Source: Kineosporia sp. NBRC 101731
GTDB taxonomy: Bacteria > Actinomycetota > Actinomycetes > Actinomycetales > Kineosporiaceae
DNA: 64,000 nucleotides
Direction of reading: 5' to 3'
NCBI RefSeq assembly: GCF_030269305.1
Contig: NZ_BSTC01000005.1
Span: 248,001 to 312,000, forward strand
Positions 29,866 through 35,079 of this stretch are shown in pieces; within the stretch, counting starts at the first letter, position 1; each line of letters begins with the position of its first letter. The position numbers and the translations under genes are program-made. Below the pieces are notes generated by a model. That model worked only from the letters and a program-made list of their open reading frames with translations. It did not search any database and had not been told where the DNA came from.

Positions 29866-30879
29866 TCAGGAGTTGTCGAGGGGGAGACCGGGCGGATTGA
29901 TCTCGGACTTCTCGACGGCCTCGTTCTGGAGGTTGTAGGCCTTCAGCCAGGCGTCGTACTGGCCGTTCTCGATCAGATAGTTGATGGCCGCGGCGACCGG
30001 CTCGTTCAGGCCGCTGCCCTTCTTCGAGGTGGCCGCGATCAGACCCTGCAGCGACTCGCCGGCGCCCGAGTAGGTGCCCGCGCTGCGGGTCGGGGTGCTG
30101 CCCGCGGCGCCGCGGGCAATGGCGTACTGGATACCGGGGTTCGGGCCGAAATAGGCGTCGATCTTGCCCGAGGCCAGGGCCAGCGCGCTGCCGTTGTGGT
30201 CGGTGTAGTACTTCACCTCGAGCTTCTTGCCCTCGGCCTCGAGCTTCTTCTTCCACTCCAGCAGGATCTTCTCCTGGTTGGTGCCCGCGCCGACGGAGAC
30301 GGTCAGGCCGGCCAGGTTCTGGTAGTCACCGTCGAAGTTCCAGGTGCTGTCCTTGTTCACCTCCCAGCCGAGCTCGTCCTTGCGGTAGGAGGCGAAGTCA
30401 TACTTGGCCTTGCGTTCCTCGGTGTCGGTGATGTTGGAGAAACCGACGTCGTTGCGGCCGCTGTCGATCCCGACGAAGAGGTTCTCCCAGGTCACGTTGG
30501 AGACCTTGGGGGTGAGCCCGAGCGTGGCGGCGACCAGCCGGCCCAGGTCGGGCTCGGCGCCGGTGATCGTCTTGGCGTCGGTGCCGGTGAACGCCAGCGG
30601 GGGGAAACCCGAGGGCAGCGAGCCGACGCCGATCACCAGTTCACCGCTGTCCAGGATCTTCTGGGGCAGCTGGGAGCGGATGTCGCTCTGTACCGGCACA
30701 TCGATCGTGGTCTCGGTGTACGGGTCGCCGGTGGCCACCGCGATCTTCACCTTCGAGGTGCCGCTCGTGGCGGCCGGGGCACTGTCGGCGTCCGCGTCGC
30801 CGCCGCAGGCCGTCAGTGTGGTGGTAACGCTCAGCGCCAGGGCGGCCGTGAAGAGGGCACGGCGTCGGGGGGTGGACAT
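29866..30879 (-). CDS. ABC transporter substrate-binding lipoprotein (amino acid type)
   Basis: A 337-residue lipoprotein of the SBP_bac_3 family. A lipobox (LTACGG, Cys25) ends the signal peptide. The mature part has the bilobed binding-protein pattern: GELVIGVGSLPSGFPPLAF, EPDLGRLVAATLGL, VGFSNITDTEERKAKYDFAS, LAGLTVSVGAGTNQEKIL, GKIDAYFGPNPG. It should deliver a polar amino acid or relative to the permease encoded upstream. The cysteine-rich leader in front of the operon suggests cystine or another sulfur compound, which is inference. ATG 30879 follows GAGGAG. It is the last gene of the transporter operon, 46 bases after the ATPase gene. Confidence 0.9.
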   Translation of the reverse strand: MSTPRRRALFTAALALSVTTTLTACGGDADADSAPAATSGTSKVKIAVATGDPYTETTIDVPVQSDIRSQLPQKILDSGELVIGVGSLPSGFPPLAFTGTDAKTITGAEPDLGRLVAATLGLTPKVSNVTWENLFVGIDSGRNDVGFSNITDTEERKAKYDFASYRKDELGWEVNKDSTWNFDGDYQNLAGLTVSVGAGTNQEKILLEWKKKLEAEGKKLEVKYYTDHNGSALALASGKIDAYFGPNPGIQYAIARGAAGSTPTRSAGTYSGAGESLQGLIAATSKKGSGLNEPVAAAINYLIENGQYDAWLKAYNLQNEAVEKSEINPPGLPLDNS

Positions 30880-30925: not shown

Positions 30926-31684
30926 TTACAAGACCTTGCCGAGGAACTCGCGGGTGCGAGGATGCTGCGGTTTGTCGATCACCTCGGCGGCCGGGCCGTG
31001 CTCGACCAGGCGCCCTCCGTCGAGGAAGAAGACCAGGTCGGCCACCTCCCGGGCGAAGCCGATCTCGTGCGTGACGATGACGAGAGTCGTTCCGGTGCGG
31101 GCCAGTTCCTTGATCACGGCAAGCACCTCACCGACCAGCTCGGGGTCGAGGGCCGAGGTCGGCTCGTCGAACAGGATGAGCTCGGGTTCCAGGGCCAGGG
31201 CCCGGGCGATCGCCGCCCGCTGCTGCTGCCCGCCGGAGAGCTGACGAGGGTAGGCGTGCGCCTTCTCGGCGATGCCCACCTTCTCCAGGAGTTCGAGGGC
31301 TCTCTTCTCCGGCGTGGGACGCCGGTGTGCACGAGGTGCCTCGGTCACGTTCTCCAGGATGGTCAGGTGCGGGAACAGGTTGAAGTTCTGGAAGACGAAA
31401 CCGATGCGCGAGCGTTGCTGCCGGATCGCCCGGTCGCCGAGTTCGTGCAGCCGGCCACGGTGTTCGCGCACACCGATGAGTTCACCCAGCACCTTGACAT
31501 AGCCGAGGTCGAGCTGGTCGAGGTGGTTGATGGTGCGCAGCAGCGTGGACTTCCCGGCGCCGGAGGGCCCGATGACGGCAGCCACCTGCCCGGCCCGGAT
31601 GTCGAGGTCGATGCCGTCGAGCACTCGGTGGGTGCCGAACGACTTCGTGGCGCCGCGGATCTCGACGGCTGTCTTCTCGCTCAT
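30926..31684 (-). CDS. Amino acid ABC transporter ATP-binding protein
   Basis: A 252-residue ATPase of the polar amino acid uptake type (GlnQ-like). The Walker A GPSGAGKST, the Q-loop in FVFQNFNLFPHLTILENV, the signature LSGGQQQR, the Walker B LILFDEPTSALDPE and the switch His in IVTHEIGFAREV are complete. Its ATG overlaps the permease stop by four bases, so permease and ATPase are translationally coupled. Confidence 0.95.
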   Translation of the reverse strand: MSEKTAVEIRGATKSFGTHRVLDGIDLDIRAGQVAAVIGPSGAGKSTLLRTINHLDQLDLGYVKVLGELIGVREHRGRLHELGDRAIRQQRSRIGFVFQNFNLFPHLTILENVTEAPRAHRRPTPEKRALELLEKVGIAEKAHAYPRQLSGGQQQRAAIARALALEPELILFDEPTSALDPELVGEVLAVIKELARTGTTLVIVTHEIGFAREVADLVFFLDGGRLVEHGPAAEVIDKPQHPRTREFLGKVL

Positions 31685-32631
31685 GCGAACCTCTTCCGGG
31701 TGATGGTGCGCAGCCGCTGGAAGGGCGTCGGGGGCACCGTGCGCTGTGAACCGCGGGCGTAGTGGCGCTCCACGTAGTACTGCACCACCGAGAGCACGCT
31801 GGTGAGGATCACGTACCAGACCGTGGCCACCAGCAGCAGCGGCACGATGTCACCGGGGAAGGTGGCGCCCAGCGTCTGCACGGTGCCGAACAGGTCGAGC
31901 AGTGACACGTAGGAGACCAGCGAGCTGGCCTTGATCAGGCCGACGAGCTGGTTCACGTAGGCCGGTACGATCGCGCGCTGCGCCTGAGGGAGCACGATCC
32001 GGCGGAACTGCCGGGCCCGGCTCAGCCCCAGGGCGTTCGCCGCCTCGTGCTGCCCCTGGTCGACCGAGGCCAGACCGGCGCGCACCACCTCGGCCGCGTA
32101 CGCCGCCTCGTTGAGACTCAGCCCGATGATGCCGATCACCGTGTAGCCGAGCAGGTCGGTGGTGTCGACGTCGGAGAACGACGGGCCGAACGGGATGCCG
32201 ATGCTCAGCTGGGGGTAGAGGGCGGAGAAGTTGAACAGGAACAGCAGCAGCACGATCAGCGGGACGGCGCGGAAGATCCAGATGTAGGTCCAGCTCACGG
32301 CCTGCAGCAGGGCGATGCCCGAGAGCCGCATCAGGGCCAGCACCACGCCGCCGAGCAGCCCGAGCACCGCGCTCCAGACCGCTACCTCCAGTGTCAGCAG
32401 CAGGCCGTCGAGGACGGACGGCTGCGTGAACCAGAAGCGGAATCGGTCCCACTGGTAGAAGGGGTTGCTGATCAGACCGTGTACGACCTGGGCCGTGACG
32501 ACCAGGACCACGGCGGTCGCGACCCAGCGCCAGGGGTGCCGGGACCGGACGACGGGTCGGCTGATCAGGAGGTCGTCGGGAGGTGGGGTGTCAACCTGCA
32601 GGCGGGGTACGACGGAGGAATCGGCGCTCAC
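31681..32631 (-). CDS. Amino acid ABC transporter permease
   Basis: A 316-residue permease of the HisMQ type. An N-terminal tail of about 30 residues precedes a first membrane helix (WVATAVVLVVTAQVVHGLI), and the conserved inner-membrane domain follows, with the EAA coupling loop in AANALGLSRARQFRRIVLPQ. The start GTG 32631 is set by AAGGAG seven to eight bases upstream. The promoter at 32880-32908 and the cysteine-rich leader at 32726-32812 lie ahead of it. A CCTCC stretch in the leader's last codons could pair with this AAGGAG. Confidence 0.92.
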   Translation of the reverse strand: MSADSSVVPRLQVDTPPPDDLLISRPVVRSRHPWRWVATAVVLVVTAQVVHGLISNPFYQWDRFRFWFTQPSVLDGLLLTLEVAVWSAVLGLLGGVVLALMRLSGIALLQAVSWTYIWIFRAVPLIVLLLFLFNFSALYPQLSIGIPFGPSFSDVDTTDLLGYTVIGIIGLSLNEAAYAAEVVRAGLASVDQGQHEAANALGLSRARQFRRIVLPQAQRAIVPAYVNQLVGLIKASSLVSYVSLLDLFGTVQTLGATFPGDIVPLLLVATVWYVILTSVLSVVQYYVERHYARGSQRTVPPTPFQRLRTITRKRFA

Positions 32632-32725
32632 GGGAACGTCTCCTTGGGGGATGCGGGCATGATGGCGCGCACCGTGCGTGAAGCATGAAAAGTGTTGCAG
32701 AGCAGTCAGAAGTGCTGAGGGTCAG

Positions 32726-32812
32726 TCAGATCCGACAACAGGAGGCGCGACGGGCGGGCGCGGGGGCGACGTGCTGGGTGCGGCACAGGGCATGGCGGAG
32801 CTGACAGTTCAC
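32726..32812 (-). CDS. Short cysteine-rich leader peptide (candidate cysteine attenuator)
   Basis: A 28-codon frame starting at GTG 32812, six bases after GAGAGGG. It contains four cysteines (positions 3, 10, 25 and 26), a CRTQHV segment and an end Ser-Cys-Cys-Arg-Ile-stop. Short leader peptides with CRT/RRHV-like segments and cysteines near the end are common upstream of sulfur-related genes in Streptomyces and mycobacteria, where translation of the Cys codons controls the downstream genes. It begins about 60 bases after a consensus promoter and ends 94 bases before the permease start. Function is inferred; no family search could be made. Confidence 0.65.
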   Translation of the reverse strand: MNCQLRHALCRTQHVAPAPARRASCCRI

Positions 32813-32879
32813 GGCTCGCCCTCTCTGTGACCGGTGCGTCGACGGTGACTCCCGGGTGCGGTGAATCACTCTGCGAAGC

Positions 32880-32908
32880 AAGCTAAAACGCCCATTACCT
32901 TTTGTCAA
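32880..32908 (-). promoter_or_regulatory. Sigma-70-type promoter for the leader and ABC transporter operon
   Basis: On the minus strand TTGACA (32903-32908) and TAGCTT (32880-32885) are separated by exactly 17 bases, in an unusually AT-rich stretch. The -35 box is a perfect consensus. The expected transcript start is near 32873, about 60 bases ahead of the leader peptide. Confidence 0.7.
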
Positions 32909-32962
32909 CCAAATCGGTGATGATTGGGTTCGGAACAGGACGGGTCTTCGGAGGTGGACGCA

Positions 32963-34127
32963 GTGGGAACGGCGACGAGGGGTGATCGGCGCGACGCGGA
33001 CGTGATCGTGGTCGGCGGTGGTGCGATGGGGTCGGCTGCGGCCTGGCAACTGGCCGGGCGAGGGCTCGACGTGTTGCTGCTGGAACGGTTCGAACTCGGT
33101 CACACGCAGGGGGCTTCGCACGGGGCGTCGCGCATCTTCCGGTTGTCCTACCCCGACCCGCTACACATCGGGCTGGCGCGGCGGGCGGGGGAGTTTGTGG
33201 CGGGAGCTCGAGGGTGAGTCGGGTGCGTCGCTGCTGACTGTCACCGGCGGCGTCGACCACGGCGGTTCGCCCGATCTGGACCGGCTGCACGCCGGGCTGC
33301 AGGCCGAGGGGGTGGAGAGTCATTGGCTGGACGCCGCGGAGGCCGAGGTGCGCTGGCCCGGCCTCCGGGTCGACAGCCGCGCGCTGTACCACCCGGGCAG
33401 CGGCCGGCTGCACGCCGACCACGCCGTCGCCGCGCTGCAGTCCGCGGCGGGTGAGCGGGGGGCGGTGGTGCTGCACCGCACCCGGGTCCAGCGGATCCGG
33501 GTGGTCGACGACGGATGCGTCGAGGTCGAGACCGAACCCGACCGGCTTCCTCTGCGGGCCCGCCGGGTCGTGGTGGCGGCGGGGGCCTGGACCGAGCACC
33601 TGCTGGCCGGGCTGGTGCCCCTGCCCCGGCTGCGGGTGACGCAGGAGCAGCCGGCGCACTTCGTACCGGTCGCCGGGGAGGCCGGTTGGCCCAGCTTCGT
33701 GCACCGGATAGCCCCGGATGCGAACAATTTTCAGAAGTTCCACAGCGGGATCTACGGTCTGGCCACTCCCGGCGAAGGGGTCAAGGTCGGCTTTCACGGC
33801 GTCGGGCCGCGGGTCGACCCGGACCGCCGTGACTTCCGCCCCCGCCCCGAACTGGCGGCCGCGCTGGAGGAGTACGTGCGCACCTGGCTGCCCGGTCTCG
33901 ATGCCTCGACCGCCGCACCGATCAGCTGCACCTACACCACGACCCCGGACGAGACGTTCGTGCTGGACCGGCGCGGCCCGATCGTCGTGGCCGCCGGATT
34001 CTCCGGGCACGGCTTCAAGTTCGTCCCCGAGATCGGCCGCATCCTGGCCGATCTCGCGGTCGACGGAAAACGTCCCGACCCGCTCTTCGCCCTCGACCGT
34101 CCCCGCCGGGCGCCGCAGCCGGCCTGA
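32963..34127 (+). pseudogene. Sarcosine/N-methyltryptophan oxidase-like flavoenzyme gene with a frameshift
   Basis: The first 78 codons (start GTG 32963 after GGAGG) encode the FAD-binding start of the monomeric sarcosine oxidase family (VIVVGGGAMGSAAAWQLAGR, HGASRIFRLSYPDP) and stop at 33217. The rest continues in another frame from ELEGESGASLL to the end at 34127. It includes SCTYTTTPDETFVLDRRG, with the cysteine that holds FAD covalently in this family, and GFSGHGFKFVPEIG. Removing one T from the TTT at 33194-33196 restores GELWRELEGE and a full-length protein. Either the gene is freshly broken or the sequence has an error there. A GNAT gene follows on the same strand. Confidence 0.85.
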
Positions 34128-34236: not shown

Positions 34237-35079
34237 ATGACCACCGTCCAGCCCGCCCCCGCATCCGGGGACCCCGCATCCGGGGACCCCACCTCGGGTG
34301 GCCCCTCTGGTGGCTCTGCGCACCCGCTCACCCCGGGCGTCCCTGCGCTGACCGGAACGCCGCGCGCCCATGGTGACCACGACGTCCACCCGCTCGACAA
34401 CCCGGCGTGGGCCTCGCTCACCGGCCCGCACACCCACTTCGCCGAATCGGTCGGGCGGGCACGCCGCTACCCGCGCGACGTGTCACCCTTCGTGGCCGTG
34501 CCGAACGTGTCGACGGTGCCGGACCCCGAGATCTGGCGTGACCTCGCGGAACTGGCCGGGCCGGGACAGATCGTGGCGTTGTCGGGCAGCCCGGCGCTCG
34601 CCGGGACGCTGCCGGCCGGCTGGGAGATCGCGATGCAGGGCGAGGGGGTACAGCTGGTGGCGACGGACGATCTGGTCACCGCTCCCGACGAGGAGGCGGT
34701 CCGGCTCGGGGAGGCCGACGTGGCCGAGATGCTCGACCTGGTCGCCCGCACCCGCCCGGGCCCCTTCGAGCCCCGCACGTATCAGTTGGGCACCTATCTG
34801 GGCATCCGGCGCGGCGGTGCGCTCGTGGCGATGGCGGGGGAGCGGCTGCATCCACCGGGCTGGAGGGAGATCAGCGCGGTCTGCACCGATCCGGCCTATC
34901 GTGGGCAGGGCCTGGGCACCCGGCTGGTGAAGGCCGTCGCGCACGGCATCCGCGAACGCGGCGAGACCCCGCTCATGCATGCCGCCGCCTCGAACGAGAA
35001 TGCCATCCGGCTGTACCTTTCGCTGGGTTTCGCCCGGCGGCGCAGGACCGGGTTCTTCGGGTTCCGGACGCCGCGGTAG
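34237..35079 (+). CDS. GNAT family N-acetyltransferase (FR47-like)
   Basis: A 280-residue protein. The first 45 residues are Pro/Ser/Gly-rich with a duplicated ASGDP unit and look disordered. The C-terminal half is a GNAT domain: VAMAGERLHPPGWREISAVC, the acetyl-CoA loop AYRGQGLGTRLVKAV, and NENAIRLYLSLGFARRR, which is close to FR47-like proteins that acetylate glycine-like or amino acid amines. The substrate is unknown. ATG 34237 follows AAAGGA. It lies downstream of the frameshifted flavoenzyme gene and may have been cotranscribed with it. Confidence 0.85.
   Translation: MTTVQPAPASGDPASGDPTSGGPSGGSAHPLTPGVPALTGTPRAHGDHDVHPLDNPAWASLTGPHTHFAESVGRARRYPRDVSPFVAVPNVSTVPDPEIWRDLAELAGPGQIVALSGSPALAGTLPAGWEIAMQGEGVQLVATDDLVTAPDEEAVRLGEADVAEMLDLVARTRPGPFEPRTYQLGTYLGIRRGGALVAMAGERLHPPGWREISAVCTDPAYRGQGLGTRLVKAVAHGIRERGETPLMHAAASNENAIRLYLSLGFARRRRTGFFGFRTPR

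Follow-up and report, generated by a model that had tools for sequence, protein, structure and literature searches.

Cysteine-rich upstream open reading frames (uORFs) are described as governing cysteine genes in mycobacteria (PMC13236596, PMC9094748, PMC4633059). For the cysteine genes of M. smegmatis, the reported mechanism is translation attenuation through these uORFs (PMC13236596). In NCBIfam, a group of actinobacterial peptides is represented by NF042934, a 'putative leader peptide' of the type cis_reg_atten with a curated cut-off of 27 bits. Of 296 genomes in the class, 199 have a match to this model at E<=0.001 and 177 a match above cut-off; none of 14 control genomes has either. Bacillus subtilis is described as regaining cysteine from S-modified cysteines by means of an acetyltransferase and an FMN monooxygenase (PMC12757645).

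Here, we analysed a short frame with four cysteine codons that lies ahead of an ABC transporter operon of Kineosporia sp. NBRC 101731, within a stretch of 64,000 nucleotides (the window). Judged by its sequence, conservation and gene context, this frame very probably acts as a ribosome-read cysteine sensor, i.e. a leader-peptide attenuator, for the downstream permease/ATPase/binding-protein operon. The cysteine-sensing principle is well supported by the sequence comparisons below, and we infer that the operon is induced at low cysteine. The earlier note on this DNA had proposed that an amino-acid-type ABC operon is preceded by a genuine leader with Cys codons. This proposal holds: the place of the frame and its Cys codons are conserved, and low cysteine is the reported signal for leaders of this class. 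A literature search returned no paper on this Kineosporia operon among the matches listed.

The leader frame and its signals

The promoter, the leader with a Shine-Dalgarno (SD) sequence, the four Cys codons with an adjacent pair and the operon on the same strand, all claimed in the earlier note, were confirmed in the sequence (Table 1). The frame translates as VNCQLRHALCRTQHVAPAPARRASCCRI, followed by the stop codon.

Table 1. Features of the leader and operon region; positions refer to the window.
Feature	Positions	Strand	Remarks
-35 box TTGACA	32903..32908	-	33-bp promoter element in 4/6 genus genomes
-10 box TAGCTT	32880..32885	-	17-nt spacer from TTGACA
SD-like GAGAGGG of leader frame	32819..32825	-	6 nt before GTG start
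Cys leader peptide frame	32726..32812	-	28 codons, 4 Cys, end Cys-Cys-Arg-Ile-stop; kept in 4/6 genus genomes
CTCCT, candidate anti-SD	32740..32744	-	Leader Ala-Ser codons and first base of Cys codon; window and K. mesophila
Spacer, leader stop to permease start	32632..32725	-	C-rich, G-poor
AGGAG, SD of permease gene	32640..32644	-	Sequence
Amino-acid-type ABC permease, 316 aa	31681..32631	-	Best NCBIfam match is a cystine permease model, below cut-off
ABC ATPase	30926..31684	-	Overlaps permease; best NCBIfam match TcyN (L-cystine), below cut-off
Solute-binding lipoprotein, SBP_bac_3	29866..30879	-	Domain search
GNAT acetyltransferase	34237..35079	+	Relatives near transporter in 61/80 loci (best 80 of 553)

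Frames with four Cys codons are not rare by themselves; they make up 27 of the 338 frames of 15-60 codons in the GC-rich window when each is counted from its first ATG or GTG. If at least four Cys codons and a Cys-Cys pair within the last five codons are demanded together, four of 1094 start-to-stop frames of this length remain, every ATG and GTG start being counted. These four share three distinct stops, and an SD-like motif precedes the leader at 32812-32726 alone.

Because TTGACA-17-TAGCTT is positioned at 32908-32880, the transcript would be expected to start near 32874. From this start, the leader would have a 5' UTR of about 60 nt (62 nt in folding). A simple promoter scan reported no promoter in the region 32500-33100, TAGCTT falling short of the rule of the scan. 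The 33-bp promoter element, searched as a pattern with N positions and up to three mismatches, gave a single match in each of four of the six genus genomes and none for a reversed control. At the other end, 94 nt separate the leader stop from the permease GTG (32631). The spacer contains 41% C and 17% G, the last 12 nt ahead of the permease start being excluded.

An imperfect inverted repeat abuts the -35 box (32908-32918, minus strand) and is also present in loci L035, L036, L004 and L005. It reads ACCGA-T-TTGGT in the window and ACCAA-T-TTGGT in K. rhizophila, and may serve as an operator at which a protein regulator works alongside the leader. Divergent from the leader lies a sarcosine/amine-oxidase-like FAD gene (32924-34127, plus strand), which is broken across two frames near 33190-33217. 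The same gene is a single frame in K. mesophila (L035). The split reflects either gene decay or an assembly error.

A diverged member of an actinobacterial leader family

The leader peptide of K. rhizophila carries the core HVDL...SALCR, which is found across actinobacteria. We searched for this core, as [VI]DL..V.S(A)LC, in 80 named relatives of the permease, selected by permease similarity alone; these are the best 80 among the 553 candidates that were confirmed. An upstream frame with the core was present within 900 nt in 69/80 loci; these relatives are mostly Streptomyces and not independent of each other, and the core pattern itself demands one Cys. Over all six frames of the same best 80 of 553 loci, 73 core matches were counted. 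At least two Cys codons from the core to the stop were found in 56 of the 69 core-bearing loci from this set, and 59 of the 69 have a Cys within the last five codons. The core was not found within 900 nt in the other 11/80 (best 80 of 553), among them K. mesophila with its diverged leader. In a set of 30 loci that includes 25 distant permeases (L006-L030, 38-50% identical), K. rhizophila alone was core-positive; the core leader therefore goes with this permease orthologue group.

The HVDL..SALC core is absent from the leaders of the source genome, K. mesophila and the Kineosporia genome G004. The source-genome peptide has no NCBIfam match at E<=1 and no Pfam match at E<=0.01, and the K. mesophila and G004 peptides match no family. 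NF042934 scores 29.2 bits for the orthologous leader of Pseudonocardia (L086) and 13.6 bits for that of K. rhizophila. The source-genome leader sits ahead of the same operon, in the place occupied by core leaders in 69/80 relatives (best 80 of 553) and in K. rhizophila. Because the K. rhizophila core recurs in this way before the orthologous permease, the source-genome leader is, as judged from place and sequence, a diverged member of the known actinobacterial Cys leaders (NF042934; mycobacterial polycysteine uORFs).

Conservation within Kineosporia

The comparison within the genus covered six genomes, the source genome counted in. A Cys-ended leader precedes the permease in four of them: the source genome, K. 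mesophila, K. rhizophila and G004. Among named relatives, K. mesophila, whose permease is 93% identical, and K. rhizophila are the nearest. Their leaders read MNCQLRHALCRSPHVAPAPARRASCCRI and MLPAARVPLCRRLHVDLVLVGSALCRI, respectively, and that of G004 reads MHSAPICDPPCPRQPVVLELCRN. The stretch LCRRLHVDLVLVGSALCRI of K. rhizophila aligns by eye with LCRTQHVAPAPARRASCCRI of the source genome. G003 retains TTGACA-17-TAGCTT and the permease of the operon, and has no leader frame there. G005 has no close permease orthologue (best 44%). The permease start region of G003 (L004) has CTG, compared with GTG in its relatives.

Between the source genome and K. mesophila, the leader frame differs by seven base changes and no indels. 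Two changes are synonymous in Cys codons, one is synonymous in an Arg codon, one exchanges GTG and ATG at the start, and three alter two residues. The earlier note had expected the Cys codons and the short frame to persist in close relatives, and this is what we found, with all four Cys kept in K. mesophila and a Cys-ended frame in 4/6 genomes. In frame, codons and gene context, the locus shows a short frame that precedes sulfur genes and has conserved Cys codons close to its end.

The loss of the peptide core in the source genome and of the whole frame in G003 could also be taken to mean that the frame is open by chance, has no part in regulation in this species and is left over from an ancestral Cys leader. 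We consider this very improbable, as K. mesophila retains the SD and a start codon together with all four Cys and the terminal Cys-Cys, while two other residues changed without an indel, and Cys-ended frames are likewise kept in K. rhizophila and G004. On the sequences compared, what sets this lineage apart is that its leader no longer has the peptide core and still has the cysteines.

If a leader without the core still works, the core is dispensable for cysteine sensing. It is conceivable, although we think it unlikely, that the lineage of the source genome and K. mesophila shed the core, kept Cys near the end and gained the Cys-Cys end together with the anti-SD, so that coupling may have moved to SD release. 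If true, this switch from the ancestral coupling would be a natural experiment on attenuator evolution. Kineosporia offers a comparison set of orthologous operons in which the leader is canonical, core-less or lost.

Sister leaders in the same genomes

The source genome encodes a further leader that exceeds the NF042934 cut-off. It ends in TYVDLLRTASATCR and precedes the gene for a NirA-like nitrite/sulfite reductase. Below cut-off, we found a 22.1-bit leader ahead of a luciferase-like FMN monooxygenase, ending in WVDLLRVSSACC, and a 14.8-bit leader, HIDLLRVCADLCQIPTR, ahead of a family-5 binding protein. The search at E<=10 that returned these also matches 10/14 control genomes, none over cut-off, so that the below-cut-off leaders rest on their peptide and place. 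By these features, both are likely genuine. K. mesophila has a 26.2-bit leader ahead of a MetQ-like lipoprotein (L121). Given the sister leaders in the same genome, the source-genome leader belongs to a group of several Cys leaders, as is the case in mycobacteria.

Some features of these loci deserve mention. Upstream of the family-5 ABC Cys leader, L130, L135 and L124 have the stretch CATTGTCTATCTTGTCTATATGCATTGACC in common, which resembles a promoter combined with a repeated operator. The leader that precedes the FMN monooxygenase in L123 begins 30 nt past the end of a TTGACA and may, because of this short distance, be leaderless. Of the leaders in L123, L122, L128 and L127, three end in Cys-Cys-stop.

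The metNIQ leader of S. lividans was published as the metL peptide MSTTSDRTPATEATTTPGARCMCRRMCAF, which contains three Cys (PMC8079986, Table 4). Because of these three Cys and the K. mesophila Cys leader before a MetQ-like gene, metL may be a cysteine leader rather than a methionine/threonine leader.

The transporter and its substrate

No transporter subunit reaches an NCBIfam cystine cut-off. For the binding protein, a cystine model is the second match overall and the best among binding-protein models, again below cut-off; the overall top match is a kinase model with the same domain. A search of solved structures with the binding protein returned general amino-acid-binding proteins and their relatives alone, and we rejected an assignment of the substrate from solved binding proteins on this ground.

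Counting genes in flanks of up to 4 kb, which misses genes farther away, a binding protein is found near the transporter in 77/80 and an ATPase in 78/80 of the loci (best 80 of 553). In the same best 80 of 553, a GNAT acetyltransferase is linked in 61/80 and an FMN monooxygenase in 64/80, mostly on the strand of the operon. The FAD amine-oxidase of the source genome occurs in 4/80 (best 80 of 553). Against the NtaA/DmoA model, the monooxygenase query scores 266.9 (cut-off 279.7) and the neighbour gene 410.8.

The linkage to GNAT and FMN monooxygenase genes in relatives favours cystine or S-modified cysteine as the substrate, which we regard as somewhat better than an even guess on the sequence data. 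A sulfur amino acid had been predicted as substrate in the earlier note; this is supported by the linked genes and by the cystine models being the best, though below cut-off. The leader itself helps to name the transporter. The 69/80 core-bearing loci (best 80 of 553) tie it, often with acetyltransferase and monooxygenase genes, to sulfur supply.

How the leader may act on the operon

In the proposed mechanism, a ribosome would initiate at 32812 and translate the Cys codons. A shortage of Cys-tRNA would make it pause at Cys-Cys just ahead of the stop, and this pause would lead to more permease, ATPase and binding protein. These products would then import cystine or S-modified cysteine as a sulfur source. 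The coupling step would be either the release of the permease SD, which is possible in this lineage, or an averted early termination of transcription.

For the first scenario, the CTCCT of the leader would pair with the permease AGGAG, and pausing of a ribosome at Cys-Cys would free the SD (translation attenuation). We see this as a tentative possibility. When the full 5' region was folded, AGGAG and CTCCT (32744-32740) were predicted to pair with a probability of ~0.45. Binding to the ribosome binding site (RBS) as strong as that of the source-genome leader end was reached by 11/217 control 30-mers (18/217 for the K. mesophila end). In RNA folded from the leader start, opening the SD is predicted to cost 5.6 kcal/mol, and 3.1 kcal/mol with a ribosome footprint at Cys-Cys. 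This drop of 2.5 kcal/mol is reached by 3/200 synonymous leaders, so the pairing uses unusual codons. In RNA that starts 30 nt later, the drop is 3.0 kcal/mol, reached by 2/200 synonymous leaders. An SD-unmasking model has also been put forward for M. smegmatis Cys genes (PMC13236596).

However, once the 62-nt 5' UTR is included, no SD release is predicted (3.2 to 3.3, a gain of -0.1 kcal/mol), and 119/200 synonymous leaders equal it. K. mesophila is near-identical across the pairing region and does not provide independent support. Across relatives, SD release was folded for 16 of 72 leader loci. The gains were 2.5 kcal/mol for the source genome, 1.4 for K. mesophila and 1.2 for K. rhizophila, whereas the other 13 loci gained at most 0.6, with several losing. 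In 71 loci, a leader's duplex with its own RBS was not stronger than swapped pairs, 97/100 swap sets being at least equal. Among the sister-leader loci of the genus, 10 of 14 could be scored; none of them gained more than 0.8 kcal/mol, the largest gain being 0.7. On the basis of the folded relatives, swapped pairs and sister leaders, we rejected SD release as a family-wide rule. Of the coupling by CCTCC and AGGAG suggested in the earlier note, the predicted pairing and its oddity against synonymous recodings stand, while the release is lost with the 5' UTR and is unseen outside the genus. Given these mixed folding results, SD coupling is possible in this lineage and unproven.

The alternative is cysteine-dependent transcription attenuation, probably of a Rho type, which we consider rather unlikely. 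Here, a normal stop at the leader would expose a bare, C-rich spacer and the transcript would end early, which a paused ribosome would prevent. In line with this, C exceeds G in 71/71 spacers (mean excess 0.19) and in 12/12 spacers behind other Kineosporia Cys leaders. The excess in the source-genome spacer, 0.24, is matched ahead of 3/43 long ORFs of the window, and a simple scan of 32500-33100 returned no intrinsic-terminator-like site. Yet a C excess is also common in 310 regions that precede other ORFs at these loci (mean 0.07, sd 0.17), 27% of which reach the spacer mean, and the smallest spacer excess is 0.05. Because the values of control regions overlap with those of the spacers, we do not accept that the C-rich spacer proves control by Rho.

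A classical attenuator with an intrinsic terminator was rejected, as the simple scan of 32500-33100 found no terminator-like site. A riboswitch was rejected as well: Rfam gives two matches in 32500-33000, both far below the gathering score. A globally unusual RNA fold was sought and not found (z = 0.44). The consensus structure of 20 of 65 suitable relatives contains 25 pairs, three of them with any two-sided change, and shows no covariation support.

Comparison with known systems

Taken together, we propose that cysteine-leader control extends to an amino-acid-type ABC operon in Kineosporia. With the NF042934 family, the leader shares its place ahead of the same permease and a Cys-ended short frame. 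It differs from the family in that the source-genome and K. mesophila peptides lack HVDL..SALC, end in Cys-Cys-Arg-Ile and match no model.

The S-modified-cysteine clusters of B. subtilis also include an ABC transporter, but they are governed by a protein regulator, compared with a leader peptide in Kineosporia. As in the relatives of the Kineosporia operon, the scm/yxe, ytn and yha clusters are described as holding acetyltransferase and FMN monooxygenase genes together (PMC12757645). In the source genome, by contrast, an FAD amine-oxidase gene rather than an FMN monooxygenase gene adjoins the GNAT gene.

In the Rhodobacterales cysS uORF motif uORFC-8-2, a cysteine-related gene is likewise preceded by a uORF with tandem Cys codons (PMC8632094). 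As described there, this motif comes with an intrinsic terminator and differs in target and phylum, whereas no terminator was found at the Kineosporia leader by the simple scan. The mycobacterial uORFs before cysA2/Msmeg_5788 and nirA/Msmeg_4527 (PMC4633059; NF042936 Ms4527A) resemble the Kineosporia leader in having Cys near the stop and in preceding sulfur genes, including nirA. These uORFs are described as leaderless (PMC4633059), whereas the Kineosporia leader has an SD and would have a 5' UTR of the length given above. Unlike the mycobacterial uORFs (PMC4633059), it targets an amino-acid-type ABC transporter.
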